In this document: positions 2,602-55,521 of the stretch, piece after piece
How positions within the stretch are numbered: position 1 is the stretch's first letter
How the letters are laid out: each line of letters starts with the position of its first letter
Source: Bryopsis sp. KO-2023
Taxonomy: Eukaryota; Chlorophyta; Ulvophyceae; Bryopsidales; Bryopsidaceae
DNA length: 64,000 bases
Direction: 5' to 3'
Assembly: GCA_030272585.1 (NCBI GenBank)
Contig: BSYQ01000008.1
Location: 4,278,001 to 4,342,000 of the forward strand
The notes under the pieces: generated by a model
Database searches by the model: none
The model's input: only the letters and a program-made list of their open reading frames with translations
Told to the model about the DNA's origin: nothing
Program-made: the position numbers and the translations under genes

Positions 2602-4487
2602 CTAAGGGTCCTGGGCAAAAGAATCAAGGGAGGTACCACTGCCCACACCGCCTCCATCAGAGGAAGCAGTGGCTCCGCTTTTGATTGTGTTGCTGGCAAG
2701 AGTGTTGGTTGAAGTGCTGGTGTCTGACGTGGTCGCCGATCCACTCACATTGGGACCATTTCCAGCAAATCCAGCTTTGGAGGCACCAATTGCAGTGCTC
2801 AACGAACCTTCGGCACAAAAGCAACTTCTTAAATCTCGCTGTAGATCCCCCAACAATTCTTATAAAAAATCCAGATGAACCCATATTACAAACCCTCAAG
2901 AAATCCAGATAAAATCATGCTTACCTGGGCCGACTACTTGGCCGAATGTGTTGGTGCTTGTGGAACCAACAGTTGGCCCAGAGCCACCCTGCACACTGGT
3001 TCCAAGAGTTGCTCCTCCTACAGCAAGAGGACTTGGCCCCTTCTGGGTGAAGGTGGTGGTGGATCCAGTTGAAGTGGTCACTCCAGATCCAGACTGGGAA
3101 CCAGCATCACCTTTGGTGATCGCAGTCGAAAGCACACCTGCACATCACACCAAAGATATGTCACCTAAATATGCAGGTAAAATTTGGGTGAAACTATTCA
3201 GGGACAACAGCAACTCATGTAGTTTTAGAAACAACGAAAAGCAGGTGGCTTGCCTGGAGTTGGGCTGCCCGGAGGAGCTGGAGCACCAGGAGTCAGGACA
3301 GGCAGCGATGGCACAGGAGGAGTGTTGATAGGAACAGGGGGAATTTGTGGCAGCACGGGAGGAACTGGAATTTGCAACTTTGGGGGCTTGACTGGAGGGA
3401 CAGGCGGCGTCGGGGTAGGCGAAGGAGGGGTAGGTGGCGATGGGGTGGGTGGCGACGGAGTGGGAGGAGATGGGGTAGGTGGCGAAGGGGTGGGTGGAGT
3501 GGGGGTAGGTGGCGACGGGGTCGGAGGAGATGGGGTAGGTGGCGACGGAGTGGGTGGAGTGGGGGTAGGTGGCGACGGGGTAGGAGGAGATGGGGTAGGT
3601 GGCGACGGGGTAGGAGGAGATGGGGTAGGTGGCGATGGGGTAGGAGGCGACGGGGTGGGAGGAGTTGGGGTGGGTGGCGAAGGGGTGGGTGGCGTGGGGG
3701 TAGGTGGCGACGGGGTAGGCGGCGTGGGGGTAGGTGGCGACGGGGTAGGTGGAGACGGGGTAGGCGGCGTGGGGGTGGGTGGAGATGGGGTGGGTGGGGA
3801 CGGAGTAGGCGGCGTGGGGGTAGGTGGTGAAGGGGTAGGTGGGGACGGGGTAGGTGGAGAGGGGGTAGGAGGCGATGGTGTAGGAGGCGTGGGGGTAGGT
3901 GGGGATGGAGTGGGCGGCGTTGGAGAAGGTGGCGTGGGGGAAGGAGGGGAACCGCCTGGAGGATTACTACCAGGAGGCTTCGGGAAACACCTGTTCATCA
4001 CACCAAAATCAATTCCGAAATCAAAAATCTCATTTCGTCTCATTTCGTTTCGTTCATGAACGTTTGATGATCATTACCTTCCTTGCCCGGGACCGGCACA
4101 AGTCAACTTGCCGTCGTTGCATTTCCTCCATGCGCAACATTTGTTGCCTTGAAATTTCCCGCACGCCGCTGTGAACGGAAACCACCAACAGAGATCAGAA
4201 CAGCAGTCACTATCAACACTGGAATTGACGTTAAAACAGCACCGAAACAGCCGAATCAATCCAACCCAACACCACACGCAAGGAGGTGAAACACAAACAA
4301 ATAAAACATGAGGAATCGAAGCCGAGGTCCAAAAGCTTAGGATTATCCCCATGTTGTTGAACGTCTTCTCTTCACGTCCAGGCAGCAACTTACGTTTCTC
4401 AACCAGCAAATCCCTTGCACAATCAACATTCACTGCCGCCAAACACAGCAACGCAACCAGCAGCGGGATCCGAATCTTGCACGCCAT
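2602..4487 (-). CDS. secreted hydroxyproline-rich (extensin/pherophorin-like) glycoprotein
   Basis: Likely an extracellular matrix or cell-wall glycoprotein. Five exons, read on the minus strand: 4487-4394, 4168-4078, 3990-3254, 3137-2925 and 2807-2602, giving 446 residues with all phases agreeing. The ATG at 4487 opens a signal peptide (residues 1 to about 24, hydrophobic core LLVALLCLAA, ending near VDCA). Exon 2 encodes a small Cys-rich segment (residues 33-61, pattern C-x6-CC-x4-C-x6-C). Exon 3 is almost entirely (S/T)PPTP repeats followed by other Pro-rich sequence, the classic substrate for prolyl hydroxylation and arabinosylation. Exons 4 and 5 encode Gly/Ser/Thr-rich tails that start alike (LSTAI). 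Intron 3 (3253-3138) has a GC donor (gcaagc) with an AG acceptor; the other three are GT-AG. The stop is TAG. It lies head-to-head with the BTB gene, 618 bp between start codons. Wall function is inferred from composition; the exact family is not certain. Confidence 0.8.
3411..3950. repeat. coding minisatellite, GGNGTNGGNGG-type units
   Basis: Degenerate 15/30-bp tandem units, on the + strand of the form GTAGGTGGCGANGGG, fill most of exon 3 of the hydroxyproline-rich glycoprotein. Read on the minus strand they encode SPPTP/TPPTP. The repeat also keeps the opposite strand open as a Gly/Val-rich frame, which I regard as an artefact of the repeat. Unit number is likely to vary between individuals. 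Confidence 0.85.
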
Positions 4488-13230: not shown

Positions 13231-15971
13231 ATGGGAGCTTTCCACACCAAAAAACACAGCCCGCACAACTTCCCTCTCATCCCGTCGTCGTTCACAAATG
13301 CCGTGACAGTCCGGCCCTATTCTCGGCATGAAAACATGCAAGAAAACCAAGGTGCACTTTTTCGAATCAGCGCCTCTGACGCGCAACCCAGCGGCTTCAC
13401 CACCACTTTTCGGAAATTCTCGGAGCGATTGATCTTTCGTTACAGACGTACCCCCAGCGGAAAAACGGAGGATGATGTCGTTTCACGCATGGAAATACTT
13501 CCGGACAAAACCGCCAAATACATATTCAGGGGGATATATGTGGGGGTGTTCATGAGCTTGCTGTTGCTCGTGAGTCAGGTGGTGATGAAAAGCAAAGGGG
13601 TGTTCAAAGACGGGCAGGCCTCCTTGAGAGTGGGGATCCCAAATTTGATCGTTGGAGGCATTTGCATGGTGACTCTTTTGAGCACTTTGGGTCGATATTC
13701 CTGGAGGTGGGTGAGTGCTCCTAGGAAAGAAAGGGGGGGGGGGAGGGTGCTTTGACACACAGAGTTTCTTTCATCGACTTTTCGTAAATGAACCAAATGA
13801 AAGGCTGCATGTCGATCAATCGATTCCAAAAAAATGCCCAGCATCGTCGAGATATGGAGCACTGATCAACGATGAGCTTTCCACTTAAAAAAAAACACTT
13901 GAAAAGATGCTAAGTAGTTTGAAGGAGGGGTTCTTTGACTTTTACTGAAGTAAACTGGAATTTGCACAGGGTGAATGAATCGAAATTTGAGGGTCAATGG
14001 AGCTTACGAAGAAGGCGGTGGACTTATCTTCAAATGGCAGAACTGTCGGCACAGTGCCTCAATTCGATATTCTTTGTCATTCCAAACATACTGCTAGTGA
14101 CGCACGGCGAACTTGAGGTTCGCAGTGGCCCCATCAGCATCCTGATGTTTCTGAGGTTCACCATGTGGAACACGATCTTCTTTCTCTTCGTCCTACAAGC
14201 CAGAGTTTTGACTCTGTGGGTGGATGGGGAAAACCGGCCCCTGGCTGAGGAAGATGGTATTCTGCTGGATGCACCTTGGAGCAGCCACTGGTTTCTGGTG
14301 TTGTTTTGGCTGGCATTCGAGGCTTGCTTCATTGTGGGGGCAGCGTCCCTCTACAGCACCTTCGAAATAACCAAGAAATTGACGGAGTTCGGCACGCTGT
14401 GTGGGAATGCGCGTACCAGGGTGGTCATAACTTTGGTGATCTTGTTGAGCTTCATGATTTACGAGGCCAGCGTGCTGTATTACATACGCACCTGCTTTTC
14501 CCAGCTGAAAAGGAAGCCGTACAACACCTTCCGGTGGATACATATCAAATTGAGGTGTCATCTCATCCAGGTTTTGGTGGTGGGCGGTTTTGTGATTCTG
14601 ACCTTCTTTTCCCTGGCCATGGTTCGACTTCGAGACTGCCATGGCACAATGCTGGTGTTTTTCGGAATCGTCCCTGGCCAACTCGCCATGACTTGTTTGA
14701 GCGTGGCGAATGCATATCTGATGATGCCTGTCAAAATGGGGAAGAATGTGTTCAACATTCGACATTCGATTGTCTGGAGGGAGAAAGACATGCAAGCTGA
14801 ACGTGCCAGCTGTGTATTTCCCAAGTGCAAGCTGTCGTCTTTTTGTTTCGAAACAGCCCTCAAGCTGTGGTACTTCAGTTTGCTTGCATATCGGGTTCAG
14901 TCAGAGAACGACGAAATCACGGTCGAGGTGGCAAAGAAACTGTACGAGCTGGACCACCATGAGGTTGTCATTCCGGAGGGTGGGGAAATCGTGGTGGTGA
15001 TTTGCTGGAGCTGCACGTCCAGTAAGATCGTGGTTTCGTTCAGAGGTACCGACAGCGCCGAAAACGTTCTGTCTGACTTGAGGGCTTGGCGTAAGGTTCA
15101 CCCCCCAGCAAGGTTATTCCTGGGCAATCGACCGCTAGTGCACAATGGGTTTCTCGACATTTGGGAGGATGGGGGGCTCAAGCACATAGTGTTGAACAGA
15201 GTGATTCAGATTGTCCACGATGAGAGGTTCCACAAGCACTCCAGTCATTTGATGTTCACCGGCCATTCAATGGGTGGCGCTCTAGCAGTGCTGGCGGCTG
15301 CTGATGTTGTCCGATACTGTGGGGTTCAGGGAAAAAACGTGACTTGCCACACTTTCGGAGCTCCTCGGATCGGAAACATGGCTTTCGTACGAGAATACAA
15401 TTTGGCGATTCGGGACACGTGGCAAATCGTCAATGGCAATGACGTGGTCCCCACGATGCCGAAATTTGGGCCGTTGTTTGCCCATGTCGGGAAAAGAGTG
15501 ATAATCAATCGCTCCGGAGACATAATTCTGAACCCCCTGTTCATCGAGAGCAAGCTGAACCGTTTTTTTCAGTTTTTCCGAGCCTCCAATTCGGTGGGAT
15601 GTCACATGATGAGGAGCTACAAGAAGTCTCTGATTGCAATCGGTCGAGCTCAGTTCATAAAGAGGAAGGGGCTCCCGGGGGGGATGCGTGCGGTTCAAAC
15701 TTTGATGGACGATTCCGAAGGTGGTGTTTTTAAATTAGCTTTCGGAGTTCAGCGGTCGCGGATGATTGACTTGCACAATCTGGGCACTTTCGCTTGGAAA
15801 AATATCGATAAAAAGGCTACCATCAATTGGAGTGAAAAAAGCTCAGAGGGATCTCAGCGCTCTGCTGAAAGTGAAGACGATATTTTCCATTCCTGTGATA
15901 CGGATATTTTCCATTCCTGTGAGGTGGAGAACAGTCCGGATAATGCTGAGGATGTCGACCCCCCTGTATAG
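13231..15971 (+). CDS. multi-pass membrane class 3 (fungal-type) lipase
   Basis: Two exons, 13231-13706 and 13970-15971, encode 825 residues; the donor ag|gtgggtgag gives phase 2, matching exon 2. About eight hydrophobic spans precede the catalytic domain (for example 98-119 and 134-154, then six more up to about residue 410). The lipase domain has the nucleophile elbow GHSMGG with Ser592, an acid Asp650 in NGNDVVPTMP and His704 in VGCHMM, in the order and spacing of alpha/beta-hydrolase lipase_3 enzymes. Membrane spans followed by lipase_3 recall diacylglycerol lipases, so hydrolysis of membrane glycerolipids is the likely role; the exact substrate is not shown. An acidic tail contains a short repeat, DIFHSC.DTDIFHSC, near residues 798-812. 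A second in-frame ATG at 13336 could be the true start. Confidence 0.85.
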
Positions 15972-50934: not shown

Positions 50935-50946
50935 GAAGGTGTGGGT
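50935..50946. repeat. LINE target-site duplication, left copy
   Basis: GAAGGTGTGGGT is present here and again directly after the poly(A) at 55510-55521, a perfect 12-bp match. Confidence 0.85.
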
Positions 50947-51169
50947 TTTCACCTTGCTCCACTCATCCAACATAGGGAGGACCCCAAAGATTCCAAAGGT
51001 TTTTTCCGCAACGATTCCGTCTGATTGCACCACTGATTCGGAACCTCTCTCCTGTTTGGTTGCTCCGCACGCTTTGTGTGAGGGTCCCTCTCTTTCTGCG
51101 CCGGCTTCACCCGTCCCTCTGTGGGTTAGGGAGTGTCATTCTTTCGTTTCTCCTTCGTCTGTTGTTTGT

Positions 51170-52096
51170 ATGAAAACTCCTCGGGGTCGTTCCGGCGGGG
51201 ACGATAGGGTTCCGCTTGGTGCAACCGCTGATCAGATGAAAAAGAAGAAGAAGGAAAGCGTTACGAATTATAATGCCCTGTTGGCGAACTTGCAATATGC
51301 CCCGTTGCGTTCTGGACCCAATACCTCCCCGCCTGATGGGGAAGGTGCGTTGCCGCAGTGTATGGAGGTCGATAGTGGTGCTGGTGTTGGCGGTTTGAGG
51401 GATAAATTTTTGGACAGCGTCCGGCAGTTTTTTCCGGATCGGGAAGGGGTGGATTCATTGGCAGCGACTTTGTTGGATGCCCTGGATTCTACTATCCGCC
51501 ACCATTTGTCAAAAACAGAGGACTTGATAACCCGGTTCTCACATCGTCTCCGTGTCCTGGAGGAGCAAGTTTCTAATTTGGAGGGGATCAATGACAGGCT
51601 GGAACAGCAACTCAAGAAAACCAATGTTGTCCTCCGTTGGTTGCCCGAGTCGCCAACGGAGTCCGAAGCCTCTTTGGGATCGTCTTTACAAGCGTTTTTC
51701 GACTCCTTATCTTCAGATGCCCCCAAAGTAGTGAAGGCTTATCGGATGGGAGCTCGAGCTGACGGATACAAGCGCCCCGTTTTGATTCAGTTTCAAAGCG
51801 AGGAGATGAAGATCGCGGCGTTGCGTCTTCGTCGTGCTAAACGTGATGTCCAAGCGTCAGACAGTACCAAGCCACCGGGGAATCGTCGCCTTCCAGAGGA
51901 CTTTTGGAAGGTTGATTGGTTTGCAGATTTAACTACGTCGCAACAAAATCGCAGGAAACAATCCCTCGATGTTTATCGGCGTGCTCGAGAAGCTGGTCTT
52001 ACGGTTCGTTGGCGTTTTGGATATCGTCTTCAATTTTCTGGTGAAGGCGATACATGGCATACCTCACTTTTTCCCACTTCTTTTTCTTCTCGCTAG
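51170..52096 (+). CDS. LINE ORF1 protein (coiled coil plus RRM-like nucleic-acid-binding domain)
   Basis: 308 residues from the first ATG inside the element; the frame stays open to the left, but that part crosses the target-site duplication into host DNA. The N-terminus is basic/low-complexity (MKKKKKE). Residues about 115-150 (RFSHRLRVLEEQVSNLEGIN and on) form a coiled coil for trimerisation. NVVLRWLPE followed by RPVLIQFQSEEMKIAALRLRRA is an RRM-like fold, and EAGLTVRWRFGYRLQF matches the C-terminal part of L1-type ORF1p. The role is RNA binding and chaperoning in the retrotransposition particle. It ends at UAG 52094-52096, with ORF2 following in the same frame. Confidence 0.85.
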   Translation: MKTPRGRSGGDDRVPLGATADQMKKKKKESVTNYNALLANLQYAPLRSGPNTSPPDGEGALPQCMEVDSGAGVGGLRDKFLDSVRQFFPDREGVDSLAATLLDALDSTIRHHLSKTEDLITRFSHRLRVLEEQVSNLEGINDRLEQQLKKTNVVLRWLPESPTESEASLGSSLQAFFDSLSSDAPKVVKAYRMGARADGYKRPVLIQFQSEEMKIAALRLRRAKRDVQASDSTKPPGNRRLPEDFWKVDWFADLTTSQQNRRKQSLDVYRRAREAGLTVRWRFGYRLQFSGEGDTWHTSLFPTSFSSR

Positions 52097-55000
52097 GATT
52101 CAAGCCATCATCCTCTGTTAAATTTGGTATGTTGGAACTGTCGTGGTTTTGTATCTTATAAGGAGCCATATTTGTTGCAGTTGATTTCTAATAATCATTT
52201 TGTTGCGCTGTCTGATATTGGGAATTTAGCTTCTCTACCATGTTTTGGTAATACACGTTTTTTTGGGATTGAGCGCTCTATTTCGGATCGAGGTGGAGGT
52301 GTAGGAGTGTACATTAAGCGATCGAAAGGTTTGAAAGTTTCTATGGATTCCACTTATTCTTCTCACTGGTTGATAGTTTTGAAGTGTATTTTTTATTCTT
52401 TTCATTTTTCGGTTTTGGCCATTTATGTCCCTCCAAGCTCGTCACCTTTTTGGGACATTTCTCTGTGGGACAGATTTCAGGAGGTTTTGACTGCTGTGTC
52501 AAGCAGTGCTCCAGTTATTTTAGTAGGGGACTTTAATTCGAGGATTGGCAAGGGAAACAGGTTTTACGGTGATTCTCTGGACTCATCGGTTTTTGTTCCC
52601 AATAGGCAGAATCGGGACACATGTATCAACCGGAACGGACGCCTATTGCTTCAATTGTGTGAGTCCTTCCAGTTGGTAGTTTTGAATGGGCGAGCTAGAG
52701 GTGATCAATCTGGAGGTTTTACTTTTGAAAATAATAGGGGGGATAAATCTACTATTGATTTTGTTATTGTTTCGCGTTCTATTTGGGGGTTATTGCCGAC
52801 CCTGTTTATCCCCACATTGGTTCCTTTTGAATCGGATCATCGACCGGTTAGGGTTTCTTTGTCGAATGTCCCGGTGGGCAGGGTTCGTTCTCAAAAGCCG
52901 AGGTGTTTTTGGAATGTGGCAATGTCGGGGTTTTTTCGTACTTCTTTTTCACGCCACACCCCTTCTTTACTAAGGGTGTTTTCGTCTTCCATGGATCTCG
53001 ATAGTATGGCGGATCAAATTCTTGCTGCCATTCGTTCTTCTATCCCAGCGTTTGCTTGGAAGATGCCTTCTCAAAGAATTTTTTCTCGATTTCAATGGTT
53101 CGATTCGGAATGTTATTCTCTTCGTGCGCGGGTTTGGCGGGCATATAGATCGGACAAGCATGGGTCTGAGTATAAACAGTTGAGGTCAAATTATCAAAAA
53201 TTGTGTTCAGGGAAAAAATCTGATTTTCAGAAGACATACGGGGATCGTTTGTTAGGCCTATATCATAGTGATCGTAAGGCGTTTTTTTCCCATTTTCGAC
53301 CAAAGTCTTTGGTTGAACCGGACTGGGTTTCTATGGACGATTGGGTCAGTTTTTATTCCTCTTTGTTTTCCCCTAAGGACCATGACTCCTCATGGTCTCT
53401 TAGTTCTTTTTTTGAGCATACTTCGGTGCAGGATACCAGTATTTTGGAGCATGCCATTACATTGGAGGAAGTGTTGGGGGCAATTATGCGGTTACGACGT
53501 CATGCAGCTCCAGGACTGGATGAGTTACCAACGGCCCTCTTTAAAGATGCCAAGGATTGTCTCATTGGGATTTTGGCAGGTTTTTACCAGGTGTGTTGGG
53601 ATCGTAAGCAATTCCCCAGGGGCTGGTTAACAGGGATTCTACGGCCTTTTTACAAGGGTAAGGGTAATCGTGCTGTCCCTGAATTTTACAGGCCCATAGT
53701 CCTGACGTCTCCTCTATATAAGATTTTTTCTTATATATTATTGGGTCGCATGGAGGTTGTAGATTGTCGTGTCGGTTTACGTTCAGATTTGCAGGCGGGA
53801 TTTCATGTAGATTTTTCTCCAAATGATCATCTTTTTCTTTTTTGGTTGTTTTGGTTTCATTCTAAGGACCAGCGTCTACCCTTTTTTATTTTATGGTTGG
53901 ATTTTCGAAAGGCGTACGATTCGGTGCAACATAGGCGTTTGTGGGAGACTCTTTATTGTTTTCGTTTTTCAAAAGCCTATGTGGAGATGTGGCAGTATTT
54001 ATACGAACATTCTTCTTTCGTTATAAAGGCATCAGTAGGGACTTCGGTACCGATACCTCTTCGGGCCGGGGTTTTACAAGGTTGTCCAGCAAGTCCTTCT
54101 TTATATAGTCTGTATCAGGAGCCACTCCAAGATTTATTGAACTCGAGGATTGCTGCTCCTTCCTTGGGTGGGGAGACCATTCCATGTATGATGTTTGCAG
54201 ATGATACGGGGATACCAGGACATTGTTGGTCTGGGGTAAAGGAAGTGTTGCAGGTTTTGATTGAATGGGAACAATATTCGGGAATTGGTTTAAATTTTTC
54301 CAAAACGATTCTGATGGTTTTTTTTCAGCAGCTTATGTCTTCTTCTTTTCATTTTCATGAGCATTCTATACCAATTTCAGAGGACCATACATATTTAGGA
54401 ATTCGGTTATCATCAAGTTCTCATCATCCTTTTTTGTCGCATATTGATTATGTTTTAGCACAGTGTCGGAAAGCAATGGGGTTTGTTTTGTCGCGTCTTT
54501 TTGCTCTGAAAATTGAGGATCCAAAAGTAGCACACAATCTTTTTAAGGTGTATGTTTTGGGCAGTATAGGATATGGGTTTCCTATTTGGGGTCCATTCCT
54601 AACAGTTTCTCAGTGGCGTTTGTTGGAAGCAATTCATCTCCAGTTTATGAGAAGTATCCTCCGTTTGCCTCGATATACGCCAAAGGAGGTTCTGTACGGG
54701 GAATTAGGGTGTTATCCATTAGAATTAGCACTTTGGTCGCAATTGTGCCGATATTGGAACAAGTTGGTTGGGTTATCAGTTGATCGATTGCATGGAAGAT
54801 TGTTTTGTTGGGGTTTTGATCAATATCACGCATCTCGATCTTCTTGGTTTGGGCGTATTTTGGGTTTTTTCAGACGGTTTTGGCCGGAGAAGATATTTTC
54901 TTCTACGATTTTGGTGGACATTTCGGAATTTCAGCGTCGTTATAAAGCTATGCATGCTGAACATGTTTTCGGTTCATCTGCATCTCGAGTTATATCTTGG

Positions 55001-55357
55001 TATCGGCATATTAAGTTTTCCCTCAGATTTGAACGGTATTTGACAACTTTAAAACCAACTTCTCTTCGGGTTTTCTTTACTCGTTTTCGTTGTGGTATTC
55101 ATTTCTTGGAAGTGGAAGTGGGACGATATAATGGTGTACCAAGGGAAAACAGGATTTGTCGGTTGTGTCGGTCCGCGGTGGAAGATGAACGGCATTTTCT
55201 TTTTGAATGTCCTTTTTATTCTTCCTTTCGTTCTTTGCATTCAGATGTTTTTCGATGGGCTAATCCCAAGGATCTTTTTAGTAGGGTGCCATCGGGCAAA
55301 TTAGCTTTAGTTATCAGCAAAATGGCTTCAATACGTTCAGCAGGTTTACAATCCTAA
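52097..55357 (+). CDS. LINE ORF2: AP endonuclease and reverse transcriptase
   Basis: The frame continues directly after the ORF1 UAG with no further stop; the region homologous to ORF2 begins at about 52124 (VCWNCRGF). There is no ATG before residue about 74 of this domain (ATG at 52343), past the first endonuclease motif, so translation probably needs UAG readthrough or non-AUG reinitiation. Endonuclease motifs are WNCRG, GDFN (about 52526), STIDFVIVS and SDHRPV (about 52833). Reverse transcriptase motifs are LDFRKAYDSV (about 53897), GVLQGCPASPSLYSLY and the active site MMFADD (about 54190-54204). A CCHC zinc knuckle, C-x2-C-x8-H-x4-C, lies at about 55157-55210. The stop is TAA. The product nicks target DNA and copies the element RNA there. 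Confidence 0.9.
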   Translation, partial: DSSHHPLLNLVCWNCRGFVSYKEPYLLQLISNNHFVALSDIGNLASLPCFGNTRFFGIERSISDRGGGVGVYIKRSKGLKVSMDSTYSSHWLIVLKCIFYSFHFSVLAIYVPPSSSPFWDISLWDRFQEVLTAVSSSAPVILVGDFNSRIGKGNRFYGDSLDSSVFVPNRQNRDTCINRNGRLLLQLCESFQLVVLNGRARGDQSGGFTFENNRGDKSTIDFVIVSRSIWGLLPTLFIPTLVPFESDHRPVRVSLSNVPVGRVRSQKPRCFWNVAMSGFFRTSFSRHTPSLLRVFSSSMDLDSMADQILAAIRSSIPAFAWKMPSQRIFSRFQWFDSECYSLRARVWRAYRSDKHGSEYKQLRSNYQKLCSGKKSDFQKTYGDRLLGLYHSDRKAFFSHFRPKSLVEPDWVSMDDWVSFYSSLFSPKDHDSSWSLSSFFEHTSVQDTSILEHAITLEEVLGAIMRLRRHAAPGLDELPTALFKDAKDCLIGILAGFYQVCWDRKQFPRGWLTGILRPFYKGKGNRAVPEFYRPIVLTSPLYKIFSYILLGRMEVVDCRVGLRSDLQAGFHVDFSPNDHLFLFWLFWFHSKDQRLPFFILWLDFRKAYDSVQHRRLWETLYCFRFSKAYVEMWQYLYEHSSFVIKASVGTSVPIPLRAGVLQGCPASPSLYSLYQEPLQDLLNSRIAAPSLGGETIPCMMFADDTGIPGHCWSGVKEVLQVLIEWEQYSGIGLNFSKTILMVFFQQLMSSSFHFHEHSIPISEDHTYLGIRLSSSSHHPFLSHIDYVLAQCRKAMGFVLSRLFALKIEDPKVAHNLFKVYVLGSIGYGFPIWGPFLTVSQWRLLEAIHLQFMRSILRLPRYTPKEVLYGELGCYPLELALWSQLCRYWNKLVGLSVDRLHGRLFCWGFDQYHASRSSWFGRILGFFRRFWPEKIFSSTILVDISEFQRRYKAMHAEHVFGSSASRVISWYRHIKFSLRFERYLTTLKPTSLRVFFTRFRCGIHFLEVEVGRYNGVPRENRICRLCRSAVEDERHFLFECPFYSSFRSLHSDVFRWANPKDLFSRVPSGKLALVISKMASIRSAGLQS

Positions 55358-55509
55358 GGTTTTTGTTTTGTTTTTGTTTTTTTTTTTTTTTTTTTCTCTT
55401 TCTTTTCTTTCCTTTTTGTCTTTGTTCCAGCATCATAGAGGGTGATGGCTCTCTTTTGCTGTGGGTTGTAATTATGATTATGATTAAAAAAAAAAAAAAA
55501 AAAAAAAAA

Positions 55510-55521
55510 GAAGGTGTGGGT
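55510..55521. repeat. LINE target-site duplication, right copy
   Basis: GAAGGTGTGGGT directly follows the A24 tail and matches 50935-50946 exactly. Confidence 0.85.

Follow-up and report, generated by a model that had tools for sequence, protein, structure and literature searches.

A LINE with ORF1 and ORF2 in a single frame

The window analysed here, a 64,000-nucleotide (nt) stretch of the genome of the green alga Bryopsis sp. KO-2023 (contig BSYQ01000008.1, positions 4,278,001 to 4,342,000), carries a long interspersed nuclear element (LINE, a retrotransposon without long terminal repeats, LTRs) with an L1-type first open reading frame (ORF1) and a second one (ORF2) for an endonuclease and a reverse transcriptase. 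The copy extends from ~50947 to 55509, ends in 24 A and is flanked by a target-site duplication of 12 bp (Table 1). The two ORFs are parted by one stop codon, a UAG, which we regard as a probable site of programmed readthrough. As a preliminary description of this DNA had stated, the ATG at 51170, the UAG at 52094-52096 and the TAA at 55355-55357 lie in one frame, and no other in-frame stop occurs between 51170 and 55357. Its further statement that the first in-frame AUG after the UAG (52343) lies downstream of the WNCRG motif of the endonuclease was likewise borne out. It had also counted nine codons from the UAG to the start of the endonuclease; these are open and without AUG, but the figure depends on the chosen domain start, and we count 12 codons to the W of WNCRG.

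The assignment to the LINEs draws on both proteins and on the ends of the element. Against solved structures, ORF2 matched R2 (E 5.2e-15) and the reverse transcriptase of human LINE-1 ORF2p (E 6.9e-13), with the R2 chains slightly ahead of L1. On its own, ORF1 of the window copy gave no Pfam match above the cut-off; a profile built from five ORF1 sequences matched human LINE-1 ORF1p (2yko, E 1.8e-4) over profile positions 153-326. The 3' tail, the 12-bp target-site duplication and the graded 5' truncations among the copies of this family, hereafter family A, are hallmarks of LINEs. The element resembles mammalian L1 in its two ORFs, in the likeness of its ORF1 profile and its reverse transcriptase to the LINE-1 proteins, and in an unconventional expression of ORF2. 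Unlike L1, which has a 63-nt spacer between the ORFs (PMC5972666), it has neither spacer nor AUG there, only the one in-frame UAG.

Table 1. Features of the LINE copy, in window coordinates.
Feature	Position	Strand	Remark
5' target-site duplication GAAGGTGTGGGT	50935..50946	+	identical 12-mer at 55510-55521
5' untranslated region	50947..51169	+	50947-50999 not common to 5 other full-length copies
ORF1, 308 aa + UAG, L1-type ORF1p-like	51170..52096	+	9 codons fewer than all 8 other site-reaching copies
Remaining GATACATGG, site of private 27-bp deletion near ORF1 3' end	52049..52057	+	
UAG between ORF1 and ORF2, then G; proposed programmed readthrough site	52094..52096	+	TAG in 39/39 counted junction rows, 5 families
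UAG-to-WN stretch, 12 codons, open, without AUG	52097..52132	+	
ORF2, 1086 aa, endonuclease and reverse transcriptase, in the frame of ORF1	52097..55357	+	
AP-like (apurinic/apyrimidinic) endonuclease domain (Exo_endo_phos, residues 13-248)	52133..52840	+	Pfam E 2.4e-8
First in-frame AUG past the UAG, within the endonuclease domain	52343..52345	+	
Reverse transcriptase domain (RVT_1, residues 529-770)	53681..54406	+	Pfam E 2.6e-18
3' A-tail (24 A), preceded by ATGATTATGATT	55486..55509	+	
3' target-site duplication	55510..55521	+	same 12-mer as 50935..50946

The UAG is kept in other copies of family A

We searched the host genome (91 Mb, 28 contigs) for further copies, and ORF2 matches had 95-100% identity in 41 of the 44 rows, some copies spanning more than one row. 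The number of A copies is a lower bound, 43 of 490 candidates having been scored. The preliminary description had proposed looking at the junction of other copies for a sense codon in place of the UAG, a different frame or an AUG. All eight other A copies that reach the site, read as DNA, keep the UAG, the frame and the flanking bases, and the junction search gave exactly one TAG in each of nine family A rows. The 1086-codon frame after the UAG is intact in seven of these nine junction copies, the window copy among them, which indicates that UAG-bearing elements spread recently.

What is private to the window copy, compared with all eight other copies that reach the site, is not the UAG but a deletion of 27 bp (nine codons) in ORF1, ~40 nt upstream of it. 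The lost sequence corresponds to one arm of a 9-bp direct repeat, GATACATGG, plus the sequence between the arms, and the loss is in frame.

The copies also vary outside the junction. At the 5' end of the window copy, ~53 nt (50947-50999) are absent from five other full-length copies, three of which have a different 5' stretch in common, followed by a T-run. At the 3' end, the 24 A of the window copy are replaced in the eight other copies read there by an (ATTATG)n-type tail with no long A-run. In one A copy, L017, ~6 kb of other sequence (L017 3793-9786) is inserted between the equivalents of window positions 52808 and 52811.

Four more distant families have the same layout

Near-identical copies prove little on their own, and the search was therefore extended to more distant relatives. 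Families B (C6:3662336) and C (C3:857717, C12:1971824) have 32% amino acid identity to the ORF2 of family A over nearly the full length, and families D and F, found via the B endonuclease, have endonuclease identities to A of 28-33% and 23-24%, respectively. At the start of ORF2, the families are 20-47% identical to the F sequence. In all four, as in A, ORF1 is followed by one stop, a UAG, and then by ORF2 in the same frame. The counted junction rows, 39 in total (A 9, B 1, C 9, D 14, F 6), each have exactly one stop, and in every row it is TAG, by which we reject the UAG as a private mutation. Among these junctions, 21 were read as DNA, and the remaining 18 rest on the in-frame stop column of the search. 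Every one of the 21 (A 9, B 1, C 2, D 3, F 6) has G directly after the UAG, in the contexts CGC-UAG-GAU (A), ACA-UAG-GAU (B), GCA-UAG-GGG (C), GAA-UAG-GGG (D) and CAC/AAC-UAG-GGG (F). Linker length upstream of the UAG varies among the families, and copies within A and within F differ there by in-frame indels, yet the shared frame is kept in all five. From the UAG to the WN of the endonuclease motif there are 14 codons in B and 12 in A, C, D and F. This recurrence of the stop, the frame and the following G across five families is more than chance, and it supports the preliminary interpretation of the UAG as a readthrough site, the mechanism being drawn from comparative sequence.

Left out of the 39 were rows without TAG, one-sided matches, repeat rows of the same copies obtained with the query of another family, and a degenerate B-like fossil, L061 (C2:4282507), which keeps the UAG and has other stops. 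Read as DNA, each row without TAG could be assigned to a copy. The row at C6:3368546 (also C6:3368543) is D copy L060, whose homology starts 15 nt after the UAG, and that at C6:1168066 is A copy L017, which starts 6 nt after it. The row at C8:2666800 is a segment of D copy C8:2667369, in which a 14-nt upstream insertion shifts ORF1 out of frame but the UAG is retained, as is the start of ORF2; that copy is itself one of the 39. To these can be added L055 (C6:3376081), an F copy that starts 3 nt after the UAG and is absent from the D/F junction-search rows. Since L017, L060 and L055 came to light by standing out from the rest, no weight can be put on how many there are. Their starts may reflect chance 5' truncations, stops of reverse transcription near the stem described below, or RNA starting there.

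Starts of this kind would fit a separate ORF2 RNA that begins or is cut near the junction, as would the promoter activity seen at the junction of Candida Tca2 (PMC2194720). We give this explanation, taken together with a supply of ORF2 in trans from copies without the stop, a slim chance. The three starts, 3-15 nt past the UAG, are at three different positions, and other A copies start at many places in ORF2; such an RNA would still be missing an AUG upstream of WN. A supply in trans is countered by the counted junction rows, none of which (0/39) has a sense codon at the site.

By eye, L055, L056, L058 and L059 seem to have a short repeated motif in common in their inserts or flanks, perhaps a short dispersed repeat; one such insert interrupts the endonuclease of a D copy, and another is placed in an F copy, within its ORF1 linker.

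Other LINEs of the genome and the genetic code

As controls, four other PF14529 LINEs (L064-L067) were read over 801-951 nt. L066 (1-801) has a CCHC-like ORF1 end and an ORF2 in another frame that starts from an AUGA stop-start overlap, and L065 has its ORF2 in a different frame, with AUGs; L064 and L067 have no recognisable ORF1 within the stretch fetched. In a distant relative, family G (L068, L069; 24-25% identity), an apparently coding upstream frame (eight synonymous and one nonsynonymous changes in 72 codons) ends in UGA. There follows a spacer of ~107 codons (9 synonymous, 19 nonsynonymous) with a shared in-frame Met, and then the endonuclease. The frames on the two sides of the UGA agree, by chance or by descent; with its unconstrained spacer and shared in-frame Met, we reject family G as an in-frame UGA version of the layout. 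The tight in-frame UAG arrangement is not general among the LINEs read in this genome. A search with ORF2 against viral contigs found nothing.

If UAG were a sense codon in this organism, ORF1 and ORF2 would be one ordinary protein, and the frame is indeed open once the UAG is read. This explanation is extremely improbable. Of the RVT_1 hits scored (150 out of 1978 candidates, with many close copies among them, over the RVT_1 domain only), a single one contains an internal TAG; by their short domain spacing and long frames, these hits are presumably LTR elements. In addition, the 39 junction rows contain exactly one stop each, the TAG itself, and a window frame that encodes a Lipase_3 domain (13923-15971; E 4.7e-28 for the domain) terminates at TAG. 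On the RVT_1 count we reject a recoded UAG, in agreement with the preliminary description, whose mention of a lipase ending in TAG also holds, at the level of the frame and not of a gene model.

Elsewhere in the window, a long reading frame of Pro-Thr-Ser repeats occupies 3225-4070 on the minus strand.

Start codons and splice sites at the junction

The Asn of WN is a catalytic residue in this endonuclease fold, and a start at the later AUG (52343) is therefore expected to lose it. In Zorro3, the endonuclease change N17A lowers retrotransposition (PMC1965478). Between the UAG and WN, there is no Met in any of the five families. Seven near-cognate codons (CTG, GTG, TTG, ACG, ATA, ATC and ATT) were checked in the same interval; none is common to all five families, and B has none of the seven.

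These counts bear on an explanation by termination and reinitiation, or AUG-independent initiation, in which translation of ORF1 would end at the UAG and restart nearby at a non-AUG codon, giving separate ORF1 and ORF2 proteins. In SART1, reinitiation has been shown and depends on structure 3' of the stop-start site; for mammalian L1 it has been proposed (PMC5972666). L1 also tolerates other sense codons in place of the first ORF2 ATG (PMC1965478). Near-cognate codons are present before WN in A, C, D and F, which would allow such a restart in those families. Even so, we judge this explanation to be unlikely. All five families are without an AUG before WN and without a near-cognate codon in common, and reinitiation requires neither UAG over UAA or UGA, nor the G after it, nor a shared frame, all three of which are conserved. 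Coupling of the SART1 type, with an AUG at or near the ORF1 stop in the frame of ORF2, is absent in all five. SART1 (PMC5972666) and the control L066 are like the window lineage in having a bicistronic LINE RNA, and unlike it in their overlapping stop and start with an AUG, the window lineage being AUG-less there.

The consensus of a 3' splice site is YAG/G, so that splicing would account for the UAG and the following G alike: a spliced mRNA would link an upstream start codon to ORF2, and the unspliced RNA would give ORF1. Family A has 27 pyrimidines in the 30 nt that end 3 nt before the UAG, as such a site would have. No such tract is present in B, C, D and F (14, 16, 14 and 19 of 30), and window positions 51000-52096 contain a single donor-like site of the form GT[AG]AG, the one donor form searched, at 51078. 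A spliced retrocopy would carry a deletion with its end at the UAG, and none of the eight other A copies that span the junction is of this kind. Nor does splicing need ORF1 and ORF2 to share a frame. We regard splicing as quite improbable.

Coding constraint and RNA structure downstream of the UAG

There is moderate evidence that the stretch directly after the UAG is translated, as judged from the pattern of codon changes. Between the F and F2 copies, the 38 codons after the UAG have six synonymous and no nonsynonymous changed codons, one of the six being upstream of WN. In the comparison of D with F, five synonymous and four nonsynonymous changes fall in the first 12 codons after the UAG. The spacer of family G, with its 9 synonymous and 19 nonsynonymous changes, serves as a contrast.

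In families D and F, a stem-loop starts 7 and 4 nt after the UAG, respectively. For the 60 nt 3' of the UAG, the fractions of 500 synonymous-codon permutations that were at least as stable were 0.014 (D) and 0.004 (F). The core stem retains all nine of its pairs in each of three sequences, two of the pairs having changed at both bases; when the stem partners were slid by 1-3 columns, at most 59% of the cells were still paired.

Programmed readthrough as the best explanation

We consider programmed UAG readthrough, in a type III context, to be the best explanation of the ORF1-UAG-ORF2 layout, and quite a likely one. The majority of ribosomes would halt at the UAG and release ORF1p, and a minority would decode it as an amino acid and carry on in frame into ORF2. 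The product would be an ORF1-linker-ORF2 fusion at a low ratio, as with the Gag-Pol of gammaretroviruses, and in families D and F the stem-loop 4-7 nt after the UAG would be the likely stimulator. We infer the occurrence and the rate of readthrough, the fusion protein and the role of the stem-loop alike from the sequences compared.

Type III readthrough sites consist of UAG with a 3' G or a purine-rich octanucleotide, together with a 3' structure; the Tombusviridae have UAG-GGR, the gammaretroviruses have UAG-G with a pseudoknot, and UAG-GGG followed by a 3' structure is also counted in this class (PMC3542737). In our LINEs, the UAG is followed by G in all five families, as GGG in three and GAU in two. 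The likeness to Gag-UAG-Pol of gammaretroviruses and to the replicase of Tombusviridae (PMC3542737) lies in the UAG, the 3' G (GGG in C, D and F), the enzyme ORF downstream in the same frame, and the stem-loop of D and F. The differences are that the host element is a LINE, not a virus or an LTR element, and that the structure is a simple stem-loop in two families, with none detected locally in the other three.

Several observations weigh against this explanation. The five families share descent and one host and are not independent origins, and A and B have UAG-GAU instead of UAG-GGR. The copies L017, L060 and L055, one each of A, D and F, start just past the UAG (by 6, 15 and 3 nt). The support for the stem-loop varies with the test: over 90 nt the permutation fraction weakens to 0.086 in D (F 0.008), uniform synonymous draws over the same length give 0.110 (D) and 0.074 (F), dinucleotide shuffles over 96 nt give z values of only -1.06 (D) and -1.71 (F), and a within-column shuffle of the stem, with three sequences of which two are close, was not significant (108 of 500). 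A, B and C have no significant local structure after the UAG, with dinucleotide-shuffle z values of 0.58, 0.34 and 1.19 and 60-nt permutation fractions of 0.38, 0.22 and 0.22, for local folds only. As for coding constraint, D and F differ over all 38 codons by 9 synonymous and 20 nonsynonymous changes, and B and the fossil L061 over 20 codons by one synonymous and four nonsynonymous changes; the case for protein constraint after the UAG thus rests mainly on the F and F2 copies and on the first 12 codons of D and F. Finally, in Candida Tca2, where Gag and Pol are likewise parted by a single stop, the gag-UGA-pol junction alone did not direct readthrough in the yeast S. cerevisiae (PMC2194720); Tca2 differs from the LINE in bearing LTRs and in its use of UGA.

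Among known LINEs, HeT-A depends on a frameshift, and the corresponding step in TART is described as unknown (PMC5009743). Zorro3 depends on its ORF2 ATG, and for two-ORF LINEs such as Zorro3 and L1 the route to ORF2 from one RNA is described as unknown (PMC1965478). No LINE with stop-codon readthrough from ORF1 to ORF2 was found among the matches listed in the literature searched, in excerpts of text, a weak absence given few subscription journals and no bioRxiv.

In a broader sense, it seems fairly likely, by a shade less than readthrough itself, that a whole LINE lineage has replaced reinitiation by programmed UAG readthrough, yielding a Gag-Pol-like ORF1-ORF2 fusion at a set ratio, convergent with gammaretroviruses and tombusviruses. 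The conservation marks one stop codon as the control point, which makes the question of ORF2 expression directly testable by a reporter. If true, the RNA-binding protein and the enzyme of a non-LTR element would be physically joined, with a bearing on cis preference and the origin of Gag-Pol-like architectures.

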